Below are positions 8,534 to 22,806 of a stretch of DNA of 51,687 nucleotides, one piece after another. The stretch lies in NCBI GenBank assembly GCA_903833215.1, contig CAILEM010000119.1:1-51687 (forward strand), given 5' to 3'. This DNA comes from an uncultured Armatimonadota bacterium. Lineage in GTDB: Bacteria > Armatimonadota > Fimbriimonadia > Fimbriimonadales > Fimbriimonadaceae. The stretch's first letter is position 1. Each line of letters opens with the position of its first letter. The translations under genes were made by a program, and so were the position numbers. The notes beneath the pieces are model-generated. The model had not been told where the DNA came from. It was given only the letters and a program-made list of their open reading frames with translations, and ran no database searches.

Positions 8534-10252
8534 CTAACCGAGTTCCGCCCGATCTCGGTTTGGATGGAGGATTTTGGAGAAGTCGCCGCGCGGTGGAGGC
8601 ATCGGGTCAGCATCCTGTTGAGTTCGCGCAACAACCCAGCCGTCACTCACTAGGGCCTCAAGAGTCTTGATGAACTCTGTCCAAAGGTCGACAAAACTCC
8701 CTCCGCTACCGATTTCAGTGGCTTGGTAATCGTACGCCGCTTGCGCGAGTTGGTGAATGTCATGTTCGGACAGGAGTCTTCGAGCCATCCAGCCCATCAA
8801 GCCGATCATTGGAAGAGTTCGGTCCTGTCTCGTGTAGGAACGGTATCGCGTGATCCTGCCGTTCTTCAGGTCTGCAGTCCAGCCCTTAACTGCATCATCG
8901 AGGTTGGTTCGGAAGTGCGTCTTTCCCGTGATCTCAAAGAAGGGCTCATCTCCCGAAAATGAGGCTACGATTTCTTTGCTGAGTAACAATCCATACAACG
9001 CCAGATCGGTAGAGCTAGAACGATTGATGAACCCGCCTTGACCAAGCCACTGCCACGCCTGCTCTGAAGAAAGATCCAATCCTGCTTCCGTAGCGATCGT
9101 TTTTGCATGCTCCTTTAGATCCGAAAAGACTCCATTTGCCGTGTACCAATACTCCGCAAATCGAATGTGCTGTCTGATTTGGGTTTGCTGTGTTTCGCCG
9201 TAGTGTTCGCGAATCCAGTCAGATTGGTAATCCGATCGGTCGAGAGCGAGAATCGAGTAAGCAACATGTCGGGCACCAAAATGAGTGAGAGAGAGCCCTG
9301 CGGACAGGATTGGGTCCGCAAAGCCAGCCGTATCACCGACGAGAAACCAGTTTTCTCCAGAGAGCCTATCCGCGACGAAGCTCCAATCTTTCGTTGTTGA
9401 TAGCTTCCCTTCGCGAGCTGCTTGTTGGAGGAGTCGACTTACGACAGGGTCTGATCGGACCGCTTCCAAGTAAAGCTCTTCAGGTCGCTTGCCGTGCTCT
9501 TTATAGTAAGAGGCAGGGATAACAAGGCCAATCGAAGTTCTTTGGGGACCTAACGGGATAAACCAAATCCAGCCGTAAGGAAGCGACAATACTTGAATTC
9601 GGGTTCCGCCAATTCCGACCGAAACAGCCCATTCGGCGTTTTGCCAATAATCCCAGATGGCGATGTTATGAAGAGCAGACGGATATTGAACATCAACACC
9701 CAGTGATCGCCGCAAGAAGCCCGATGCCCCGCTACAGTCCAGATAGTATCTCGCTTGAACAACGGTTTCGTCAGCCAATTCCAGACCGTCAACACGGTCG
9801 TTGCTGGATATTACGCGTCGGACGGCAACGTTCTCATGGACATGACACCCCCACTCCGCCGCGTGATCGAGCAGGATCTTATCGTATACCGCGCGGTCAA
9901 CCTGGAAGGCGGTTCTGCGTCTTTGACCCACGTATTTAGCCGGTCTCGGTTCGAGGTTGAGCTTTCCATCCGGTAGAAACTCAAAATCCCAAAGGTCGGC
10001 GGTCCGCCCCCAGCGATAGGTAGCACCAATCTTGATTGGAAAGCCAGCGGCCTCGACCTTGTCCCAGACCTCCATTTCTTCTAAAACTTTCGAGATGACA
10101 GGCAACTGGCTCTCTCCGACATGATCTCGCGGAAATACCTCACGCTCAAAGATATGTATCTTTAGGCTAGGGTTGTACTTCTTAAGAAGCGATCCTACTG
10201 TGGAGCCTCCCGGCCCCCCACCGATGATCGCAACATCACAATCGATGGTCAT
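8534..10252 (-). CDS. FAD-dependent oxidoreductase of the flavin-dependent halogenase type (paralogue B)
   Basis: A 572-aa flavoprotein. An N-terminal Rossmann motif (GGGPGG) binds FAD. The WIWFIP segment matches the WxWxIP signature of flavin-dependent halogenases, and the Lys in FPIKIGATYRWG sits where these enzymes keep their active-site lysine. GDTAGFADPILSAG is the second FAD contact. I place the start at 10252 because this ATG overlaps the stop of the upstream gene as ATGA, which implies translational coupling; a longer in-frame start at 10279 lies inside that gene. The neighbour at 10249-11964 is a close paralogue. Substrate and true halogenating activity are unknown; an FAD monooxygenase or hydroxylase is the alternative. 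Confidence 0.82.
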   Translation of the reverse strand: MTIDCDVAIIGGGPGGSTVGSLLKKYNPSLKIHIFEREVFPRDHVGESQLPVISKVLEEMEVWDKVEAAGFPIKIGATYRWGRTADLWDFEFLPDGKLNLEPRPAKYVGQRRRTAFQVDRAVYDKILLDHAAEWGCHVHENVAVRRVISSNDRVDGLELADETVVQARYYLDCSGASGFLRRSLGVDVQYPSALHNIAIWDYWQNAEWAVSVGIGGTRIQVLSLPYGWIWFIPLGPQRTSIGLVIPASYYKEHGKRPEELYLEAVRSDPVVSRLLQQAAREGKLSTTKDWSFVADRLSGENWFLVGDTAGFADPILSAGLSLTHFGARHVAYSILALDRSDYQSDWIREHYGETQQTQIRQHIRFAEYWYTANGVFSDLKEHAKTIATEAGLDLSSEQAWQWLGQGGFINRSSSTDLALYGLLLSKEIVASFSGDEPFFEITGKTHFRTNLDDAVKGWTADLKNGRITRYRSYTRQDRTLPMIGLMGWMARRLLSEHDIHQLAQAAYDYQATEIGSGGSFVDLWTEFIKTLEALVSDGWVVARTQQDADPMPPPRGDFSKILHPNRDRAELG

Positions 10253-11964
10253 GGAGAAACCGCCTGATCCGAATTCCACTTTAAGACTCGATCAGACCAC
10301 GGTTCGGGAGTCCAAAGCGGACGCGTCGGTTCAAACCTACACTGGATCCATCCGTCGGACACCATTGCCTCAACGATCGCCATGCCCGAGTAGAACAACT
10401 CGTCGACTTTACGAGCATCGTCGAAAAGTGCTGAGAGCGCATTGCGAAACTGTTCAACGATCTCGGAAATATCCGAGTAGCGCTCTAGCACAGTTACGAT
10501 TCCTTCAATGTGATACTCAATGGGCAGAGCACGGTCGCCGCGGACATAGCAGGGCGTCTTCTTGACACGGCCCTCAACATAGGAGGCTCGATCCTTCCAA
10601 CTTGCTCCAGACAAGTCGAGTTTGAAAACATTGAATGTTGCGAACGGTGACTTGGAATCCAGTTCGCCAAGCATCTCCGACATCGCCTTAATTGAGGACA
10701 GAGAGTATCCGCCAACTCCCACGCTAAGGTCCTCATCAATGAACCCACCTCTTGCCAGCCAAGCCCAGGACTTGTCTGGTGACATGTCGAGACCACAATC
10801 CTCAGCAAGCGTCTGTGTGAATCCTTTCAGATCAGTGAACTGTTCATTTGCCGTGTACCAGTAATCACCAAAGCGGATATGGGTTCGGATACGTTGAGCT
10901 TGCCTTCTCTGAAATTCATCCCTAAGCCATGTCCCGTTGAGCTTTCCACGTTCCAGTTCTAGAATCGTATACGCCGCCTGACGAGCTGCGATGTGAGCCA
11001 TCGTGACTCCTGCTGAAAGGATCGGATCCGCAAACCCAGCACACTCACCGATAAGGAACCAATTCGAACCAGCTTGTCTCTCGGCAAGAAATGACCAGTC
11101 GCGGGTCGTCTGAAGTTTGCCCTCGTTACGGGCATTTCTGAGCAATCCCCTGATCATAGGCTCCTCAAAAATCGCCTGCTCGTAGAGTTCTGCCGGGGAT
11201 TTGCCGCTTTGTTTGTAGTAGTCCGCCGGGACAACAAGCCCCAAACTGGTTCGGGTCGGGCCAAGTGGGATGAACCACAACCAGCCGTAACCGACAGACA
11301 TGACCTGAATGCGCGTTCCTCCTACGCCAATCTCCACCGCCCAATCGGCGTTCTGCCAGTAGTCGTAGATCGCGATATTCTTCAGAGTGCTAGGGTAGTC
11401 ACAAGGTATTTCTAGTGCCCGACGTAGAATGCCGCTGTTTCCTGAAGCATCGATGTAGTGACGGGCTTCGACGATCTCGCCGGAGCTTAGATGCAGCCCT
11501 TCGATCCGATCGGCATTCGCAAGTACCTGGACGACCTGTGTGCCCTGGCTTACATCGCAACCCAGTTCCTGAGCATGGTTTAGGAGGATCGTGTCATAGA
11601 TCGAACGATCTACTTGAAACGCAGTCATCTTCCGTTGGCCAAGGAATGGGGCAGGGCGCCGTTCGTCCACAAACTCGTTGGAAGGATAGAACTCAAAGTC
11701 CCAAAGCTCCGGTCGACGGCCCCAGCGAAATGTTGCTCCAATTTTGATTGGGAAGTTCGCGGCCTCGACCTTGTCCCAACATCCCATCTCGTCGAGAATG
11801 CCGGAGATAGGCGGCAAAAGGCTCTCACCGATATGATCGCGAGGAAACACTTCGCGCTCAAAAATCCTAACGTGCAAATCAGGACGATATTTCTTGAGGA
11901 GGGCACCTGCCGTAGATCCAGACGGTCCCCCTCCAATAATTGCTACGTCGCAACCTGTGTTCAT
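10249..11964 (-). CDS. FAD-dependent oxidoreductase of the flavin-dependent halogenase type (paralogue A)
   Basis: A 571-aa flavoprotein and the first gene of a two-gene minus-strand operon. It has GGGPSG (11-16) for FAD binding, candidate active-site Lys74 in FPIKIGATFRWG, the halogenase signature WLWFIP (228-233), and GECAGFADPILSAG (306-319). The C-terminal 200 residues are helical and diverge most from the neighbour, as expected if the two act on different substrates or positions. No flavin reductase gene is adjacent, though such enzymes need FADH2 from a partner. The promoter should lie in the 420-bp gap shared with the divergent pseudopilin gene, where palindromes are found about 40 bp upstream of this ATG. 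Confidence 0.82.
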   Translation of the reverse strand: MNTGCDVAIIGGGPSGSTAGALLKKYRPDLHVRIFEREVFPRDHIGESLLPPISGILDEMGCWDKVEAANFPIKIGATFRWGRRPELWDFEFYPSNEFVDERRPAPFLGQRKMTAFQVDRSIYDTILLNHAQELGCDVSQGTQVVQVLANADRIEGLHLSSGEIVEARHYIDASGNSGILRRALEIPCDYPSTLKNIAIYDYWQNADWAVEIGVGGTRIQVMSVGYGWLWFIPLGPTRTSLGLVVPADYYKQSGKSPAELYEQAIFEEPMIRGLLRNARNEGKLQTTRDWSFLAERQAGSNWFLIGECAGFADPILSAGVTMAHIAARQAAYTILELERGKLNGTWLRDEFQRRQAQRIRTHIRFGDYWYTANEQFTDLKGFTQTLAEDCGLDMSPDKSWAWLARGGFIDEDLSVGVGGYSLSSIKAMSEMLGELDSKSPFATFNVFKLDLSGASWKDRASYVEGRVKKTPCYVRGDRALPIEYHIEGIVTVLERYSDISEIVEQFRNALSALFDDARKVDELFYSGMAIVEAMVSDGWIQCRFEPTRPLWTPEPWSDRVLKWNSDQAVSP

Positions 11965-12004
11965 AAGCCCAACGGACCACTCCGGCGTGTATCCGAAACC
12001 CAGT

Positions 12005-12018
12005 GTATACCGATATAC
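12005..12018. promoter_or_regulatory. Palindromic operator candidate GTATA-CCGA-TATAC
   Basis: An inverted repeat with 5-bp arms around CCGA, 40 bp upstream of the halogenase-like gene start at 11964. Its core (TATACCGATATA) differs by one base from the perfect palindrome at 12139-12150, so the same regulator may bind both. A half-site-like AATACCGGAG follows near 12041. LacI-family operators often centre on such a CG step, and a LacI-family gene lies at 13626. Confidence 0.5.
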
Positions 12019-12107
12019 CTCGATTCCGTGAGGGTCATTTAATACCGGAGTCTAGATTAAACGTTCTATCGGTGAGAAGCGGACCCGCTAATTATGATTA
12101 TTGGCAG

Positions 12108-12119
12108 TTGTGATCACAA
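12108..12119. promoter_or_regulatory. Perfect 12-bp palindrome TTGTGATCACAA
   Basis: A perfect dyad 20 bp upstream of the second TATACCGGTATA-type site, in the divergent intergenic region. It lacks the 6-bp spacer of a CRP/FNR site, so I do not assign a regulator; it is only a candidate protein-binding site. Confidence 0.35.
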
Positions 12120-12135
12120 ATGTTCAAAAAACGCT

Positions 12136-12163
12136 TGGTATACCGGTATATCTAGGTTATGAT
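12136..12163 (+). promoter_or_regulatory. Sigma70-like promoter with palindromic operator in its spacer
   Basis: TTGGTA (12136-12141, 4/6 match to the -35 consensus) and TATGAT (12158-12163, 5/6 match to the -10) are separated by 16 bp. The perfect palindrome TATACCGGTATA (12139-12150) overlaps the -35 and fills much of the spacer, a classic position for repression. Transcription would run right towards the pseudopilin gene at 12385, giving a leader of roughly 215 nt that holds two hairpins. The LacI-family protein at 13626 is the obvious candidate regulator (inference). Confidence 0.5.
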
Positions 12164-12384: not shown

Positions 12385-13245
12385 ATGCAACGAAGAAAGG
12401 CATTTACCTTAATCGAGCTGCTTGTTGTAATCGCCATCATCGCGATCCTCGCCGCCATCCTCTTCCCAGTGTTCGCTCAAGCGAAGCTGGCGGCAAAGAA
12501 GACAGCTTCTATCAGTAATCTGAAGCAATTCGGCCTCGCATCAAAGATGTATGAGGGCGACAACGACGACATGATCACGCAGTCGCAGTTCTGCACCAAG
12601 TATCAGGATGGAAACACACTGCTGACATGGGAGAACACGCTCTATCCCTATATCAAGAACGGCAATAACGTTGTCGATCCAACATTTGGAACTGGCAACG
12701 GCTCCCCGGATCGTGACGTAGCTGAAGGCATTTGGGCAGATCCAGGTGCTCCGACGAAGCAGAGCTTCCCTTACGGAATCAACTTCCGTCTTTCTCCTGA
12801 TAACTGGGGATACACCTGTGACAACGTCTCGGACGGTATGAACGTCTCAATGAGCGCTACAGCGGTTCCGCGACAGTCGGATGCGATCTTGATCATGACT
12901 AAGGGCAAGACCGAAACCGAAAGCAGTGCACAAAGCAAGTGGGGATGGATCTATTTCATCTCCGATGAGTACGGTTGGACTTCTCACACCGCCCTCGACT
13001 CCAGTGGCCAGCCACTTCTATCCGGTGAGGTCGACGATCTCGCCCAGAAGAACGGCGACTGCGATGGTGCTGACGGCACCGGGTCTGGTGAGGTTTGGGC
13101 TGGTTGCGGCATGCTCCCTCGCTACAGATATAGCAAGGTCTGCCCGGTCGCATTTGTCGACGGTCATGCGAAGACGATGAATAAGAACTCGATCACCTTT
13201 GGCAAGAATATCTACGTTAACGCCCCGAATCAGGGTATTTGGTAG
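12385..13245 (+). CDS. Prepilin-type pseudopilin, H-X9-DG-like C-terminus (copy 1)
   Basis: I start this 286-aa protein at 12385, where GGAGGA (12372-12377) sits at good spacing and translation gives [15 protein letters not shown]; longer in-frame starts would run through the leader hairpins. The type IV prepilin cleavage site precedes the FTLIE motif (Glu5 of the mature protein), followed by the hydrophobic helix and [14 protein letters not shown]. Near the C-terminus [11 protein letters not shown] matches the DG motif of the DUF1559/H-X9-DG pseudopilin group. Prepilin peptidase would process it and it would be exported as a type II/IV pilin-like subunit; its partners are not in the window. 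A small lipoprotein gene follows immediately. Confidence 0.9.
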
Positions 13246-13539: not shown

Positions 13540-13554
13540 ATGTCCGGTGGACAT
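13540..13554. promoter_or_regulatory. Perfect dyad ATGTCC-GGT-GGACAT upstream of the LacI-family gene
   Basis: Perfect 6-bp arms around GGT, about 70 bp before the regulator start at 13626. Its position suggests an autoregulatory operator. It differs from the TATACCGGTATA type, so it may belong to another regulator. Confidence 0.4.
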
Positions 13555-13625: not shown

Positions 13626-14699
13626 ATGCCGGTTACACTTCGTCAAGTTGCGGCCCTGGCTGGCGTCTCACCAGTCGTGGTCTCAAGAGTTCTGCATAAC
13701 AAGGCCCTTTCTATACATGTGGCCGACCAAACGGCTGAGCGGGTTCGACAAGCAGCCAAAGAGCTCGGATACCGCAGAAATGTCACGGCAGTGAATTTTC
13801 GAGCCAAGCAAACGATGGCGATCGGGATGCTGCATGGGATGGGCTCGGCGATTGTTCCACTTGAAGGAGGTACCAAATACCTCGCCTCTCTCATGGACGG
13901 TGTCATTGGTGGAGCATTCTCAAATGGCTATTCGGTTCTGCTATGCCCTCAACTCCTAGGAAATACGCCCGTTGATGCAGTCAGCGACGGAAGGTGTGAT
14001 GGGTTGATTCTCTTCAATGTAGAACTCGTTCAGGAAAACATGGATATGCTTTCCCGTTGCACACTGCCAATAGTCCTTCTGCATACTCCAGCGTGTGCCT
14101 TTGGACAGAGCTTCCCTTCGGTCGTTTGTGATAACGAGCAAGGAATCGGCCTTGCAATGGCCCATCTACTTGAAATGGGTCACAAGCGCATAGCGTTCAT
14201 CCACGACGAGCCGGATGACTTGCGGCCCACACTAAATCCCCCAACCCCTAGTGAGCTTCTGGAAGCTTCTCCCCAAAGAATTCGAAGCCGAAGCTACGAA
14301 CTCAGTACCAGAGGCAGCGCTTTCCTGGAAAATGCGCGTCACTTGCACCTCGGCCTTGATTCATCGGATGTGATTCACATTCGCCAGATTGATCGCCTAT
14401 TCGATTCCGATTACACTGCGGCCCTCTGCTTCCACGACGGAGTCGCCGGCCTCGTTTACGATCACGCGGCAGAACGCAATGTGCGAATTCCCGCCGACCT
14501 GTCAGTCGTAGGCTTTGACTCAACTTCCTTCTGTGACGGGCTCCGACCACCACTGACCTCAGTCTTTCAGCCACTGAAAGCCATGGGAGAAAAAGCTGCC
14601 GAGATCCTGGTTTCGATTATCCGGGAGGAGCCTAACGAGTTGAATGAGGTTGTTTTCCCATGTGGTTTTCACATCCGACAGTCGGTCGCTCGACTCTAG
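13626..14699 (+). CDS. LacI-family transcriptional regulator
   Basis: A 357-aa protein of normal LacI length. I choose the ATG at 13626 because AGGA (13617-13620) is correctly spaced and the helix-turn-helix follows at once: TLRQVAALAGVSPVVVSRVLHNK, with the hinge at about 50-60. The periplasmic-binding-protein-like sensor domain spans about 65-355, with late signature elements ADLSVVGFDSTSF and PPLTSVFQP. It would bind a small sugar-like ligand in the cytoplasm and repress or activate nearby genes. It sits just upstream of the CE15-like/SGNH esterase gene, a plausible target, and downstream of the palindrome-bearing promoter at 12136. An upstream in-frame start at 13536 would place the 13540 dyad inside the coding region and is less likely. 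Confidence 0.93.
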   Translation: MPVTLRQVAALAGVSPVVVSRVLHNKALSIHVADQTAERVRQAAKELGYRRNVTAVNFRAKQTMAIGMLHGMGSAIVPLEGGTKYLASLMDGVIGGAFSNGYSVLLCPQLLGNTPVDAVSDGRCDGLILFNVELVQENMDMLSRCTLPIVLLHTPACAFGQSFPSVVCDNEQGIGLAMAHLLEMGHKRIAFIHDEPDDLRPTLNPPTPSELLEASPQRIRSRSYELSTRGSAFLENARHLHLGLDSSDVIHIRQIDRLFDSDYTAALCFHDGVAGLVYDHAAERNVRIPADLSVVGFDSTSFCDGLRPPLTSVFQPLKAMGEKAAEILVSIIREEPNELNEVVFPCGFHIRQSVARL

Positions 14700-14793: not shown

Positions 14794-16926
14794 ATGCCCC
14801 AAACCCAGGAACCCAAGTTCACAAAGTCTGCATTCACTTTCGGCCTATGTCTGCTATCCGCGTCCATACTTGCCGGACAATTTGGCCCGCCAGGTCCTCC
14901 TCCCCCGTTCGACGACCATTCAGAAATGATGAAACAGCTTGGGCTCAAGTCGATTCGACCGGGACCCAACCCGAATAATCAATCCACTTTTGACGAAGCA
15001 GTGGCGAATCCGTTCAAAGATTCGATGCCTGGTGTCCTGACGCTAGACGATGGAACGAAGGTGACCCGCCCCGAACAGTGGACAAAGCGCCGACGAGAAA
15101 TTACTGAGTTGTTTAGCCGCGAAGTCTACGGTCGAGTACCCAGGAATGCACCCAGAGTTCGGTGGGAAGTCACTGGCATTACTCCCGGCATGAGCGGTGG
15201 AATCCCAGTCGTCACTCGGACGCTGATTGGGCACGTGGATAATCGGGCCCATCCCAAAGTCAAAGTCGACATTCAAGCAACTTTCACAGTGCCTGCGCAC
15301 GCCACTGCAAAAGTGCCAATCATCGTCGAGTTCGGATTCATGGGTGGGTTCGGGTTTGGTCCACGAAGCACCGCAAAGCCTTGGCCTCAACAAGCGATCG
15401 AAAACGGATGGGGATACGGAATTATCAACCCAAATTCCATACAACCCGACAACGACCACCTCGAAATGGGAGTGATTGGACTGTGCAACAAAGGCAGACC
15501 TCGCAAACCTGAGGATTGGGGTGCACTTAGGGCTTGGGGATGGGGTCTAAGTCGTCTCATCGACTACTTCGAGACAAATCGAAACTCCCATGTTGACACC
15601 AAGAAAGTCTGCATTGAGGGTGTATCTCGGTATGGAAAAGCCGCTCTTGTTGCCGAAGCTTTTGATACACGCGTAGCCGCGGGATTTATCGGTTCTTCGG
15701 GCGAGGGTGGGGCAAAGCTCCACCGCCATATTTTTGGCGAAGCTGTTGAGAACTTAGCTGGTGGCGAGTATTACTGGATGGCAGGCAATTTCATCAAGTA
15801 CGGCGCATCTGATCCTCCTAAGACTGCCGCCGATATACCCGTTGATTCCCACGAACTGATCGCCCTGTGCGCCCCTCGCCCCTGTTTTATAAGCTACGGG
15901 CTTGTGGAAAAAGGCGACGCCAAATGGGTCGATGCTCACGGGTCGTTCATGGCTGGAGTGCTAGCTGGACCCGTTTATAAGCTGTTAGGGAAGCACGATC
16001 TGGGAACCGCAGGTGACTATCTCACCGACCCTATGCCACCGGTAAACAAGCTCATTGGCGGTGAGTTGGCATGGCGACAACACGATGGTGGGCACGAAGT
16101 CACTCCCAACTGGCCAGCTTTCTTTCAGTGGGCATCGCATTACATTTCAGCTCCTCCTTTACCGACTGACCGTTCACCTGTAAAGGCTCGGTCAGATGTG
16201 CCGGCTTCACGTAGCGACTCCAATTCGATGATCGCTCACATGCAGCTCGTTCAAAAGGCAGCGAAAGGTGGGATCGACCTCTATTTTGAAGGAGACTCAA
16301 TCACCCGTCGCTGGGGAACGAGTGATGCCGCTTGGAAGGCCCTGTTCGCAAACTGGACAAAGAACTTTTTCGGCTGGAACGCAGGAAATTTCGGATGGGG
16401 AGCCGATGGAACTGAAAACATTCTATGGCGAGTGAGGAATGGTGAACTGGACAACGTAAATCCGAAGGTCATCGTTGTGCTGGCAGGAACCAACAACATC
16501 GGAGCAAACCAGAGCTCTGCTGAAGTGACAAAAGGGGTCGAAGCCATCGTCCGAACGTGTCGTGAGAAGGCTCCGAAGGCAACCGTTATCCTCACAGCCA
16601 TATTCCCGAGGAACGATAACATGGCATTCCTCCCGACGATTACTGCTGTCAACCGCGAGTTAGCCAAGTTCGCAGATGGAAATCATGTGAGGTTCCTTGA
16701 TGTCAATTCACGTTTGGCGGATGAGAAGGGCAATCTTTTCGAAGGCATCTCAGACGACAAATTGCATCTGACTGTTAAGGGATATCAAGTTTGGGCCGAT
16801 GGGCTGAGGCCGATCTTAACCGAATTATTGGGTACCCCAGCCAAGACGGATCATGCGCCACCGGCAACGGGCGATCCAAGTCAGGCACCTCGGCCAACCG
16901 GACCTCCGCGACGCACAAATGGGTAG
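14794..16926 (+). CDS. Secreted two-domain esterase: glucuronoyl-esterase-like (CE15) plus SGNH/GDSL hydrolase
   Basis: A 710-aa protein with AGAGG at good spacing before the ATG and an N-terminal signal-like segment (about 10-28). Residues about 60-455 form an alpha/beta hydrolase like CE15 glucuronoyl esterases: nucleophile Ser278 in GVSRYGKAAL and His434 in HDGGHE. Residues about 490-690 are an SGNH hydrolase with Ser502 in GDSIT, GTNNI, and the Asp655/His658 pair in DDKLHLT. CE15 enzymes cut ester bonds between lignin and glucuronoxylan, and SGNH domains often deacetylate hemicellulose, so the fusion suggests one enzyme that strips ester decorations from xylan. A LacI-family gene lies 94 bp upstream, so sugar-responsive control is likely. 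A Pro-rich tail ends the protein. Confidence 0.88.
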   Translation: MPQTQEPKFTKSAFTFGLCLLSASILAGQFGPPGPPPPFDDHSEMMKQLGLKSIRPGPNPNNQSTFDEAVANPFKDSMPGVLTLDDGTKVTRPEQWTKRRREITELFSREVYGRVPRNAPRVRWEVTGITPGMSGGIPVVTRTLIGHVDNRAHPKVKVDIQATFTVPAHATAKVPIIVEFGFMGGFGFGPRSTAKPWPQQAIENGWGYGIINPNSIQPDNDHLEMGVIGLCNKGRPRKPEDWGALRAWGWGLSRLIDYFETNRNSHVDTKKVCIEGVSRYGKAALVAEAFDTRVAAGFIGSSGEGGAKLHRHIFGEAVENLAGGEYYWMAGNFIKYGASDPPKTAADIPVDSHELIALCAPRPCFISYGLVEKGDAKWVDAHGSFMAGVLAGPVYKLLGKHDLGTAGDYLTDPMPPVNKLIGGELAWRQHDGGHEVTPNWPAFFQWASHYISAPPLPTDRSPVKARSDVPASRSDSNSMIAHMQLVQKAAKGGIDLYFEGDSITRRWGTSDAAWKALFANWTKNFFGWNAGNFGWGADGTENILWRVRNGELDNVNPKVIVVLAGTNNIGANQSSAEVTKGVEAIVRTCREKAPKATVILTAIFPRNDNMAFLPTITAVNRELAKFADGNHVRFLDVNSRLADEKGNLFEGISDDKLHLTVKGYQVWADGLRPILTELLGTPAKTDHAPPATGDPSQAPRPTGPPRRTNG

Positions 16927-17358: not shown

Positions 17359-18162
17359 ATGAAAAAAGCATTTACTCTCATCGAGCTTTTGGTGGTTATC
17401 GCCATCATCGCTATTCTCGCCGCCATTCTTTTTCCTGTCTTCGCTCAAGCTAAGCTTGCCGCAAAGAAGTCTCTTTGCGTCAGCAACGCGAAGCAATTGA
17501 ACCTTGGATTCATCATGTACGCCGGAGACAACGACGACACGATGGTCACCCAAGAAAACGGAGGAATTCACCAAGACACGCGTGAGTTCCAAGTCATCCT
17601 TCAGCCATACCTGAAGAATCGAGACATCATGTTCGACCCGACTCGCTTCCTTACCGGGTGCAGCACGAACGTGGATCCAAAAGGAAGATGTATCGGTTTT
17701 GCACCGAACTTCGGAATCTATTCCTATCGAATCGGAACCGGTATGTTCCATGCCGTGCAGAGTGATACAGATGGTTCTGGTGACTCTGAGTGGCGAGGCG
17801 TTAACTTCGGCGAAGTTCAGTCACCAGCCCAAACCATTTTGGTCGGCCTGACGAATGACACCAACATGTACACCCTGTCGTTCTACTTCCAAACAGGTGA
17901 CGGGACAACCCCCTCGGCTGTTCGCTACGGCGGACAATATCCGATGGGCTATGTCGATGGTCATGCAAAGACTGTCAAGATGGCGGCGTACAGCTTCCAG
18001 CACGATGGAGATGATTTCGACATCATGCCGATGAATGTCAACGACATTAAGTCGTATTGCCGAGACGTCAACGCAGTTCCTGAACTGACCAATGGATTTA
18101 GCGGCGCTGTCCCCTGCGGTCAAATCGCTGACCAACTCGTTCAGTTCAGGGTGCCGCTATAG
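17359..18162 (+). CDS. Prepilin-type pseudopilin (copy 2)
   Basis: A 267-aa protein beginning [18 protein letters not shown], with the prepilin cleavage site before Phe and the same long N-terminal helix and [14 protein letters not shown] block as copies 1 and 3. The C-terminal half differs in sequence but keeps the DG motif ([12 protein letters not shown]). The shared [17 protein letters not shown] region after the helix is typical of the DUF1559/H-X9-DG group. A very small lipoprotein ORF and a strong terminator follow, as after copy 1, so this looks like a duplicated cassette. It would be processed by a prepilin peptidase in the inner membrane. Confidence 0.9.
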
Positions 18163-19282: not shown

Positions 19283-20188
19283 CTAGTTCGGCCATGGCGT
19301 TGGAGTAAAGCCAAGGGCACCGCTAAAGATCGTATCGATGAACGTGGAACAACCCATGTTGGGAAGTGGCAAACCAAGGTTCGCAGGGGTGACCTGAACG
19401 GAGTCTTGCGAACACCAGAAACTGTGCCAATTCGACCGATCCGCTGGCATTGCGATGGTTGATTCTCCGGGCGCTTGAGCACTTGGATTCGGGAAGTTGA
19501 ATACTTGAAGCTTCTGAGCTTTCGCGTGGCCGTCCACATAAGCAAAGTTGAACGAACCACCATACCGGAGACTTGACGCCTTCTTGTCTCCCACGTAGTA
19601 CTGGAGCAGAGAGCCGACCGCACTCATCGTGTATCGGCGTCCGTTGTAGCTATCTCCAAAGGCGGCCAAACTTGCCGGATTGCTCACGGCGGTCATGGAA
19701 ATTCCAGGAGTCACGGTTCCGTTCGGGCTCGCCTGTTCGGCACCGAGAAGACCACCACCTGCCCAGATTCCGAAACCCCAGTTGTAACCAAAAGAAAGGC
19801 ACCTTTTCGCATCAGCACCTGACGGGACGTAGTATCCGGCGGGTGTATTGGTATTGTCGCAGGACATCGTCTCGGACCCAACAGCGTCACCATGGTTGTG
19901 GGACCACTCGGAGCTGAAGAACACCCCCATGTTCTTCAGGTAGGGCTGCATCGTTTGGTAGACATCGACAGACCCTTGGCCGCTGACCGTGAAAACAATC
20001 GGCGCTGTATCGTCACTGTCCCCGACATACAACTGCATGCCGAGCCCGATCTCTTTGGTATTGCTCAACGCGACCGTCTTCTTGGCAGCCAACTTTGCTT
20101 GAGCAAAGACCGGAAACAGGATGGCAGCAAGAATCGCGATAATCGCGATAACGACAAGCAGCTCGATAAGGGTAAATGCTTTCTTCAT
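19283..20188 (-). CDS. Prepilin-type pseudopilin (copy 3)
   Basis: I start this 301-aa protein at 20188, where translation gives [13 protein letters not shown] after an AGGA at fair spacing; the longer in-frame start at 20335 would overlap the neighbouring gene and add a non-pilin N-terminus. The prepilin cleavage site, hydrophobic helix and [14 protein letters not shown] block match copies 1 and 2, and [12 protein letters not shown] carries the DG motif. Unlike copies 1 and 2, no lipoprotein ORF follows. The short upstream region contains TTAATATTAA (20220-20229), a possible AT-rich promoter element. Confidence 0.88.
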
Positions 20189-20268
20189 GGCGTGAATCCT
20201 AGGACACACTCTACACACATTAATATTAAGGGACGAATAGCTGCCAAGAACCTTAATTTGTTTGATCA

Positions 20269-22806
20269 CTATCGGTCTTCGCCGAGAACTTTGGCATTCG
20301 GTCGTGTCGCACTTCGCCCCTTTCTGGCACGCCATAAAATGTCGGCAAGTTCTCGATCAGGGGCCGATTCCTCACGTGTTGGATTGAAGAGCTTGGCAGA
20401 CTCCATCGCACGATACGATCTCACGGTATTAACCTCCATCGTTGATCGACTAGGAAGCAATGCGTCAACGGGGGCGATGTTTACAGGTGAGTTTGCGAAG
20501 CAGTCAATGGGGCTCGCTGTCGCCGTGAACTGGTTCGTCGGAGGCAAACCTAATAACCACTCAACGGTTCTCAAAGCATCGTCGGTGTTGTAGAACCGGT
20601 GGTAGATTCCACTTGGCTTGACCCATGGCGAGACGACCCAGCAGGTACTACGATGTCCGTCGACATGATCATAACCCCCTTGCGCATCATCCTCGATAAT
20701 GACAATGGCAGTTCGCTTCCAGAGGGGACCATGGCTGACGGTTTCGATCAATTGTCCAACCGCGAAGTCGTTGTCAGCGATCATCGCGGCCGGGGTGGGC
20801 GCACCTGGTGTCGTTCCCTGCGTGTGATCATTCCCAAATCGAACCAGCATCAGCGGCGGAACCTTATCAGCTTTGACCAACCTCTCGTAATCCTTCTTCC
20901 ACTCCTGGAACCGTGAGGTTGCTTTGGAACTGCCAAAGGTTGCCCGCCTCTTTGGGAAAGACTTCCCGATTTTCTCCCAGACATCGCTCTCGGCATAGTC
21001 GAGATCAAACATTCTGAAGTCAGTATCACACCGGCCAAGAAATGCTTTCTTCGTTGGCTCATTGTCGACAGAAATTGGCTTGCCCGTCTTGGTTTTCACA
21101 TTGATGCCAGCCGCCAAATACATCCCGTAATTTTTGAATTCAACATGGTGGGCAAGAGCGTTGTCCCAGAGGTAGCCACCGGCAGGTTCGTTCACATCTC
21201 GCATGCCATAGGCATCCGAAGGAGTTCCATTGGTTTGGCCCTCATAATCGTATTCGCGCTTGTGGTCGGAATAGTCGTACTGCGCGTTTCGCTGGACATA
21301 CTCGCTGGTCATGCCTGCTGTCGACCAACTCCATCCATCGGCACTCATCTCCGCGCAGGCGTAGAAGTTATCGAAAAGGCCAAACCGCCGAGCAAGTGAG
21401 CGTTGGTTCGGAACAACGTCGTCTCCATAGAGCAACAGATCCTTACTCCCAGCGCCGTGAGAAAAGTCCCCAAAAAACTGATCATAGCTTCGATTTTCCT
21501 TGACGATGTAGATGACCTTGTCGATCCCGGGGCGCTTGGGCATGGATCGGCCAATCAAACTCAATCGGTTATTCGCCACGACTTGGGTCGTCCAACGTTT
21601 GAGTTGCGATTGTGAGGCAGGCCAATGAATCACGGCAACTTGTCCGTGCAGGTTCTTTCGGATATTTGGGCCAGAGTCGCCATCAATCATCTGCTGCTTG
21701 GTCGCCCCAGTTGGCGGAAGGTTCGGGTTGACGAGCACAGAGCCTTTGCCAGAAGCAACCAAGAGTCCGCCGAGACCGGTCACAACGCTGGTCGGATACC
21801 AACCGCTCGGAATCATTGCTCTAAGGGTCTGATGCTCGACATCGACGACGGCAACCGCATTGAGATCGCTTAACGCCACGAACAGAGTTTTTGCGTCGGC
21901 CGACAAATGGAGCCCAAGCGGACTGGCTCCAGGCAACCCACGCTGGGCGGTAGGGCGAACCAACAGTGTCGAAATCAGAGAGTCCGTCTTCGTATCGATC
22001 ACGGAGACGGTATCGCTGCTCGAACAGCTGACAAAGAGACGATCTTCGGCGGCGCTGAAGGTCATATAGGTTGGGTTAGCCCCAACCTCGATCAGCTTTG
22101 AGACCTTCATCGCCTCTGTGTCGACGACGGCAACCACACCATCCCGTTCACAACTGACATACAGCTTTTTGTCCCTAGACGGTCCCTTCGTAAGAAGGCG
22201 AGCATCAAGGGGAAAGGCGGGCAAAGGGATCACCTTTTTAGATTTCGGCTCAGCGATGTCAAATGAGGTTAAGCTGCCCTTGAAGTCGGAAAGAGCAAAC
22301 GACTGGTTGCCAACCGCATATAAACGTTTGCAGTCGGAACTCACCGCTAACCCGGCTACAAAATTGGGCATTTGAGCCTCAATCATCGGGCGTATGGAGT
22401 AGTAGTTGCCGATGGGTCCACTAAGGTGCCCTACGGCGCTCACCTCATAAGAGTCCACTCGATCAGCGGCACCATGGGAGACAAATAGCATTGTCTTTCC
22501 CTCTAATGTCTTCGCGAACCGAACACCAAAATAAAGACCATCTTTGGCTTTTCCATCCGGCCTTTGACCGTCGAAATTGAGCGACTGCACCAATCGGCCA
22601 TCCCGAGCATCCAGGATCGTCAGATTTTGCTCCGTCCCGCCGTGGATCACTGCGACGAACTTGCCATCCGGCGACAGCTCCATGTTCGTCGGAAATCCTC
22701 CGGTTCGAATCGACTGCCCCACGGGCGACAAACGCCGACCGGTTGAGGTGAGTCCCTGATTCTGCGGCGAGAAGAACACGTAAGCAGCAACTGCGAGGAT
22801 CAGCAC
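20269..22806 (-). CDS. YVTN beta-propeller plus phosphoesterase (AcpA/phospholipase C-like) fusion
   Basis: An 845-aa exported protein with an N-terminal hydrophobic segment (about 1-15, signal or anchor). Residues about 30-400 form a seven-bladed-type propeller of YVTN/lactonase-like repeats ([50 protein letters not shown]). Residues about 425-770 are a phosphoesterase-family domain with [14 protein letters not shown] near its start (metal and nucleophile region), [11 protein letters not shown] and [15 protein letters not shown]. The family includes acid phosphatases and phospholipases C. The propeller may bind a partner or substrate. The start at 22806 has no convincing ribosome site. Similar fusions are common in soil bacteria; the substrate is unknown. 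Confidence 0.87.

Follow-up and report, generated by a model that had tools for sequence, protein, structure and literature searches.

Two similar palindromes lie between a pair of halogenase-like genes and a pilin gene in an uncultured member of the Fimbriimonadaceae, and they raise the question of whether a single sugar-type repressor could govern an enzyme operon and a surface protein together, as an earlier note on this DNA had proposed. Sequence comparison across the window (the whole stretch of 51,687 nucleotides analysed here) and related genomes leads us to assign a probability of roughly 0.83 to the reading that these palindromes, O1 and O2, are operators of the neighbouring LacI-type repressor, which would co-silence the pilin and halogenase units (Table 1).

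Table 1. Features of the locus, in window coordinates.
Feature	Position	Strand	Remark
FAD-dependent halogenase-like protein 2	8534..10252	-	63% identical to its orthologue in the G017 cassette
FAD-dependent halogenase-like protein 1 (PF04820)	10249..11964	-	nearest solved relatives 8zop, 3e1t, CmlS, PltA
Predicted operator O1, TGTATACCGATATACC	12004..12019	.	40 bp 5' of the minus-strand halogenase-like operon
Promoter-like TTGGTA-17-TATGAT for pilin	12135..12163	+	conserved in G017 as TTGGTA-17-TATCAT
Predicted operator O2, GGTATACCGGTATATC	12137..12152	.	between the -35 and -10 boxes of the pilin promoter
Secreted pilin-like (type IV pseudopilin) protein	12385..13245	+	prepilin N-terminal methylation signal; orthologue in the G017 cassette
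Small ORF, 75 aa	13248..13475	+	lipoprotein-like start (by eye); directly 3' of pilin
ATGTCC-3-GGACAT dyad	13540..13554	.	5' of lacI; not conserved
LacI-family regulator	13626..14699	+	HTH recognition helix SPVVVSRVLHNK, Peripla_BP_3 body
Glucuronoyl-esterase-like + GDSL esterase	14794..16926	+	possible further gene of the locus

Palindromes, promoter and genes of the locus

The core palindromes are GTATACCGATATAC in O1 (14 bp, 12005-12018) and GTATACCGGTATAT in O2 (12138-12151), the latter enclosing the inner palindrome TATACCGGTATA (12139-12150). Both sites are palindromes of even length, about 16 nt or longer, centred on CG and lying 5' of a gene; LacI-family sites are as a rule even palindromes of 16-22 nt centred on CG, and local regulators make up about 90% of the family (PMC4052901). 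When the intergenic region of 420 bp was dinucleotide-shuffled 5000 times, no pair of palindromic 14-mers of equal similarity (at least 6 of 7 pairs) arose, and the exact motif TATACCGRTATA occurs in the 6.2-Mb genome solely at O1 and O2. With up to two mismatches it is matched 73 times genome-wide, against 72 for a reversed-pattern control, and since there is no excess, O1 and O2 are a local pair rather than a global motif. A genome-wide regulon for this motif is thus ruled out; across genomes, allowing two mismatches to the 16-bp consensus makes the search too unspecific to be of use. The same intergenic region contains a further perfect palindrome, TTGTGATCACAA (12108-12119), which is unexplained; it is absent from the upstream regions of sister cassettes and has one other genomic copy (G000:C108:20074).

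The earlier note had placed the O2 palindrome inside a sigma70-like promoter with a 16-bp spacer. Palindrome and both boxes are present (TTGGTA, 12135-12140; TATGAT, 12158-12163), but the spacer measures 17 bp. The pilin leader extends about 220 nt ahead of the start codon, and none of the Rfam families, riboswitch or other element, was found in it. The pilin itself carries the prepilin N-terminal methylation motif (PF07963, 35.7 bits, cut-off 21.2; TIGR02532, 31.3 bits, cut-off 16.3), and a Pfam search with the small ORF that follows gave no match. Two more pilin-like genes of the window (17359-18162 and 19283-20335) have no adjoining halogenase.

On the other side of the intergenic region, O1 precedes the ATG of the first halogenase-like gene (11964) by 40 bp, as had been noted before. 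The two halogenase-like genes overlap as ATGA (10249-10252), the start codon of the second (10252) overlapping the stop codon of the first, and therefore form one operon; a good sigma70-like promoter for it was sought next to O1 and not found. The two proteins score 110 and 119 bits against PF04820 (gathering score 21). Halogenases of this type are recognised by a WxWxIP-type motif, FxxPxxSxG and a Lys, all of which we located by eye in the sequences and in alignments with 8zop and 3e1t. The enzymes of the window share with CmlS, 3e1t and PltA the FAD fold, GGGPxG, WLWFIPL as the WxWxIP-type motif, FADPxLSxG and a Lys-containing IKIGATFRWG stretch. They differ in that no biosynthetic cluster is recognised around them, that up to 18 paralogues per genome occur, mostly beside pilins, and that they remain far below the cut-off of the CmlS equivalog NF033113 (184 and 174 bits versus 900). 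QhpG, LodB and GoxB, which modify a partner protein, belong to a related flavoenzyme family, and here too the enzymes are encoded beside a putative secreted partner; however, the enzymes of the window score under the curated cut-offs and modification of the pilin is unsupported. A related flavoprotein, peptidyl tryptophan dihydroxylase (7ctq), hydroxylates instead, and halogenating activity of the enzymes of the window is predicted.

The regulator gene (ATG at 13626) was correctly described as a LacI-family gene about 1.5 kb from the palindromes: its product scores 47.2 bits against PF00356 (cut-off 27) and 83.4 bits against PF13377 (cut-off 26.5). The locus resembles local LacI-family regulons of the RbsR and GalR kind (PMC4052901) in its even central-CG palindromes, the nearby regulator with HTH and Peripla_BP_3 body, and the few targets. 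It departs from them in that a pseudopilin and halogenase-like flavoenzymes stand in place of a sugar-catabolic pathway as the predicted targets, and in that no autoregulatory site was found at this locus. Binding of the regulator at the 13540 dyad only had been named as an outcome that would count against the proposal. This dyad is absent from all relatives' loci examined; it is probably not the operator of this LacI protein, and we rejected it as such. No operator of the O1/O2 type lies in front of the esterase gene.

Conservation of the sites and covariation with the regulator

The organism's relatives place it in the Fimbriimonadaceae of the Armatimonadota. Among 60 related genomes only a few contain the exact motif. 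One of them, that of the congener G017, has two copies, both in the orthologous cassette, which is ordered LacI - motif - halogenase - motif - pilin, with TATACCGGTATA before each of halogenase and pilin. The motif search in the genome and its relatives that had been suggested as a check thus found the motif kept upstream of orthologues and did not refute the proposal. The LacI proteins of the two cassettes are 48% identical overall and 71% in the HTH DNA-binding domain, and the pilins are orthologous. Pilin promoter and operator can be aligned together as AAAAAAC-CTTGGTATACCGGTATA-7-TTAT[GC]ATG, with the boxes TTGGTA-17-TAT[GC]AT.

Most of the closest LacI homologues in the family are encoded in LacI-pilin operons, often with site variants (approximately GATAYACCGRTRTATC) upstream. 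For many of these homologues, in other species and genera, the variant lies 40-180 bp upstream, so that the motif has a phylogenetic footprint shared with regulator orthologues. LacI-pilin operons are often preceded by twin sites exactly 22 bp apart (L226, L229, L236, L237, L238), three homologues have a weaker site about 1.4 kb upstream, ahead of the preceding gene (L141, L149, L150), and the LacI-pilin operon L227 of G007, a genome that also has cassettes L042 and L054, has the site GATACACCGGTATAGC. When the window motif was compared with the 250 bp upstream of 14 LacI homologues, leaving out the LacI genes of the window and G017, the best mismatches summed to 55 versus 74.8 +/- 2.4 in 200 dinucleotide shuffles (lowest shuffle 68), the loci not all being phylogenetically independent. 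A version of this test with a refined consensus was stronger, but that consensus derives from the same sequences.

In sister cassettes the LacI recognition helices are different, and so are the palindromes ahead of the genes, each of these being centred on CG. Helices of the class SP[VI]VVS pair with GTATACCGGTATA, [SG]KVTVS with TGAACCGGTTCA, S[TV]STVS with CGAAACGNTTCG and SPMAVS with ATATAACGNTATAT. Over 15 cassettes, helix similarity correlates with operator similarity (Mantel r=0.44, permutation p=0.001), part of which reflects shared ancestry. Upstream of the cassette genes, LacI-like palindromes are more numerous than in mononucleotide shuffles (halogenase, 31 versus 11.9; pilin, 20 versus 6.3), and the enrichment is smaller upstream of other genes of the same loci (60 versus 46.6).

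Alternative explanations

Several observations count against the palindromes being LacI operators. The 250 bp upstream of the LacI gene of the window hold no such site, unlike those of many homologues, the distance from O2 to the start codon of the pilin is 233 bp, more than for most LacI sites, the variants in homologues differ from the sites of the window at about 2-4 positions, and some members of the LacI clade, e.g. L143, have no clear site nearby. That O1 and O2 arose by chance in a promoter region rich in A+T is nevertheless scarcely credible: it would agree with the absence of any excess of two-mismatch matches, but not with the shuffling result, the uniqueness of the exact match in 6.2 Mb and its conservation in the orthologous G017 cassette. 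We also consider it improbable that LacI binds O2 with O1 as a mere auxiliary site, so that only the pilin would be regulated and the halogenase operon would be constitutive. A clear promoter is indeed found at O2 only, but in G017 a core-identical site is located 30 bp before the halogenase start, with 1.9 kb separating it from the pilin site, and this suggests that the halogenase is controlled directly. In addition, the 133 bp between the centres of O1 and O2 do not correspond to an integral number of helical turns.

Binding of another regulator, e.g. a GntR-type protein, deserves consideration as O2 contains GGTATACC, similar sites being known for some GntR regulators, and regulators with a GntR HTH and a LacI body accompany many sister cassettes. 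This reading is improbable given that the motif accompanies LacI proteins of the clade SP.VVS in other species and adjoins the orthologous LacI in G017; moreover, no regulator other than LacI was recognised in the cassettes of the window and G017, GntR genes lying outside the profile search. Overall, the G017 cassette, the motif variants of the LacI clade and the covariation with the recognition helix largely support the proposed joint control of enzyme pair and pilin by LacI.

Regulator, pilin and halogenase cassettes and their possible role

The pairing of pilin and halogenase had been called unusual, yet it is common in this lineage. The halogenase-like family numbers 14 in the genome of the window, and a relative has as many as 18. 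Of the 90 paralogues whose flanks are complete to 4.5 kb, 60 lie within that distance of a pilin, 43 of a regulator with LacI body (LacI- or GntR/LacI-type) and 42 of both; a TPR-sulfotransferase is near 26. With 103 pilins (N_methyl proteins) and 22 LacI genes in the 6.2-Mb genome, we estimate that chance would place a pilin near about a fifth of the halogenases and a LacI gene near about a twentieth, a figure that GntR-type regulators would raise. Relatives of the halogenase in Cyanobacteria and Phycisphaerae have neither pilin nor LacI nearby, and the association thus characterises this lineage. In about half of the cassette regulators the LacI-type sugar-binding body bears a GntR-like HTH, an AraR-like layout (L040, L045, L062, L089, L101, L112, L123 and others), which suggests that HTH domains have been exchanged over a common body.

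Cassettes of regulator, pilin and halogenase recur many times per genome (L038-L137, e.g. G000:C153 (L045), G017:C53 (L040) and G004:C34 (L089)), often with a protein combining TPR and Sulfotransfer_3; by eye, the three genes are codirectional in about 21. Seven halogenase paralogues (L049, L058, L069, L107, L121, L127, L128) adjoin a sodium/proton-antiporter-like gene, as judged by eye; these are mostly without a pilin, and five form a clade of their own. A pseudopilin expansion with 79 PulG-like genes has been reported for Fimbriimonas ginsengisoli Gsoil 348 (PMC4072686), which belongs to the same bacterial family and has the same kind of pilin; the main text of that report mentions neither LacI nor halogenases. 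A literature search for the combination of LacI, pilin and halogenase returned no description, and the paralogously expanded cassette of the Fimbriimonadaceae is apparently undescribed. As far as sequence can tell, the system would be a local LacI regulon, a known kind, with unusual content, set in a new, expanded cassette family.

How could the circuit work? Without inducer, a LacI dimer would occupy O2 in the promoter spacer of the pilin and O1 just 5' of the two-gene halogenase operon, and thereby keep both divergent units, pilin(-lipoprotein) and halogenase, switched off. Once a sugar or oligosaccharide is bound in the Peripla_BP_3 domain, LacI would be released and both units turned on. 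We infer LacI binding, repression rather than activation, and the sugar ligand, the last because of LacI family membership and the neighbouring glycosidase and esterase genes: GH2 and GH31 genes adjoin members of the LacI clade, and the locus of the window has the glucuronoyl-esterase/GDSL gene. A further step would be that each cassette has its own LacI- or GntR-type sensor and operator and that the halogenase-like enzyme, and the sulfotransferase, modify the co-expressed pilin to yield sugar-specific, switchable surface fibres. We regard this as unlikely; that the enzymes modify the co-expressed pilin is an appealing but unsupported idea, and a search for a Trp- or C-terminus signature that would mark halogenase-linked pilins as substrates found no difference from unlinked pilins.

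The findings offer a testable regulatory circuit for two puzzles of the Armatimonadota, namely their hundred or so pseudopilin genes and the role of many orphan halogenase-like enzymes. The changing pairs of operator and recognition helix within one genus are also a useful natural dataset for studying how LacI duplicates escape cross-talk. If sugars do switch these enzymes and pilins together, the substrate of the enzymes may belong to the cell surface and not to secondary metabolism.
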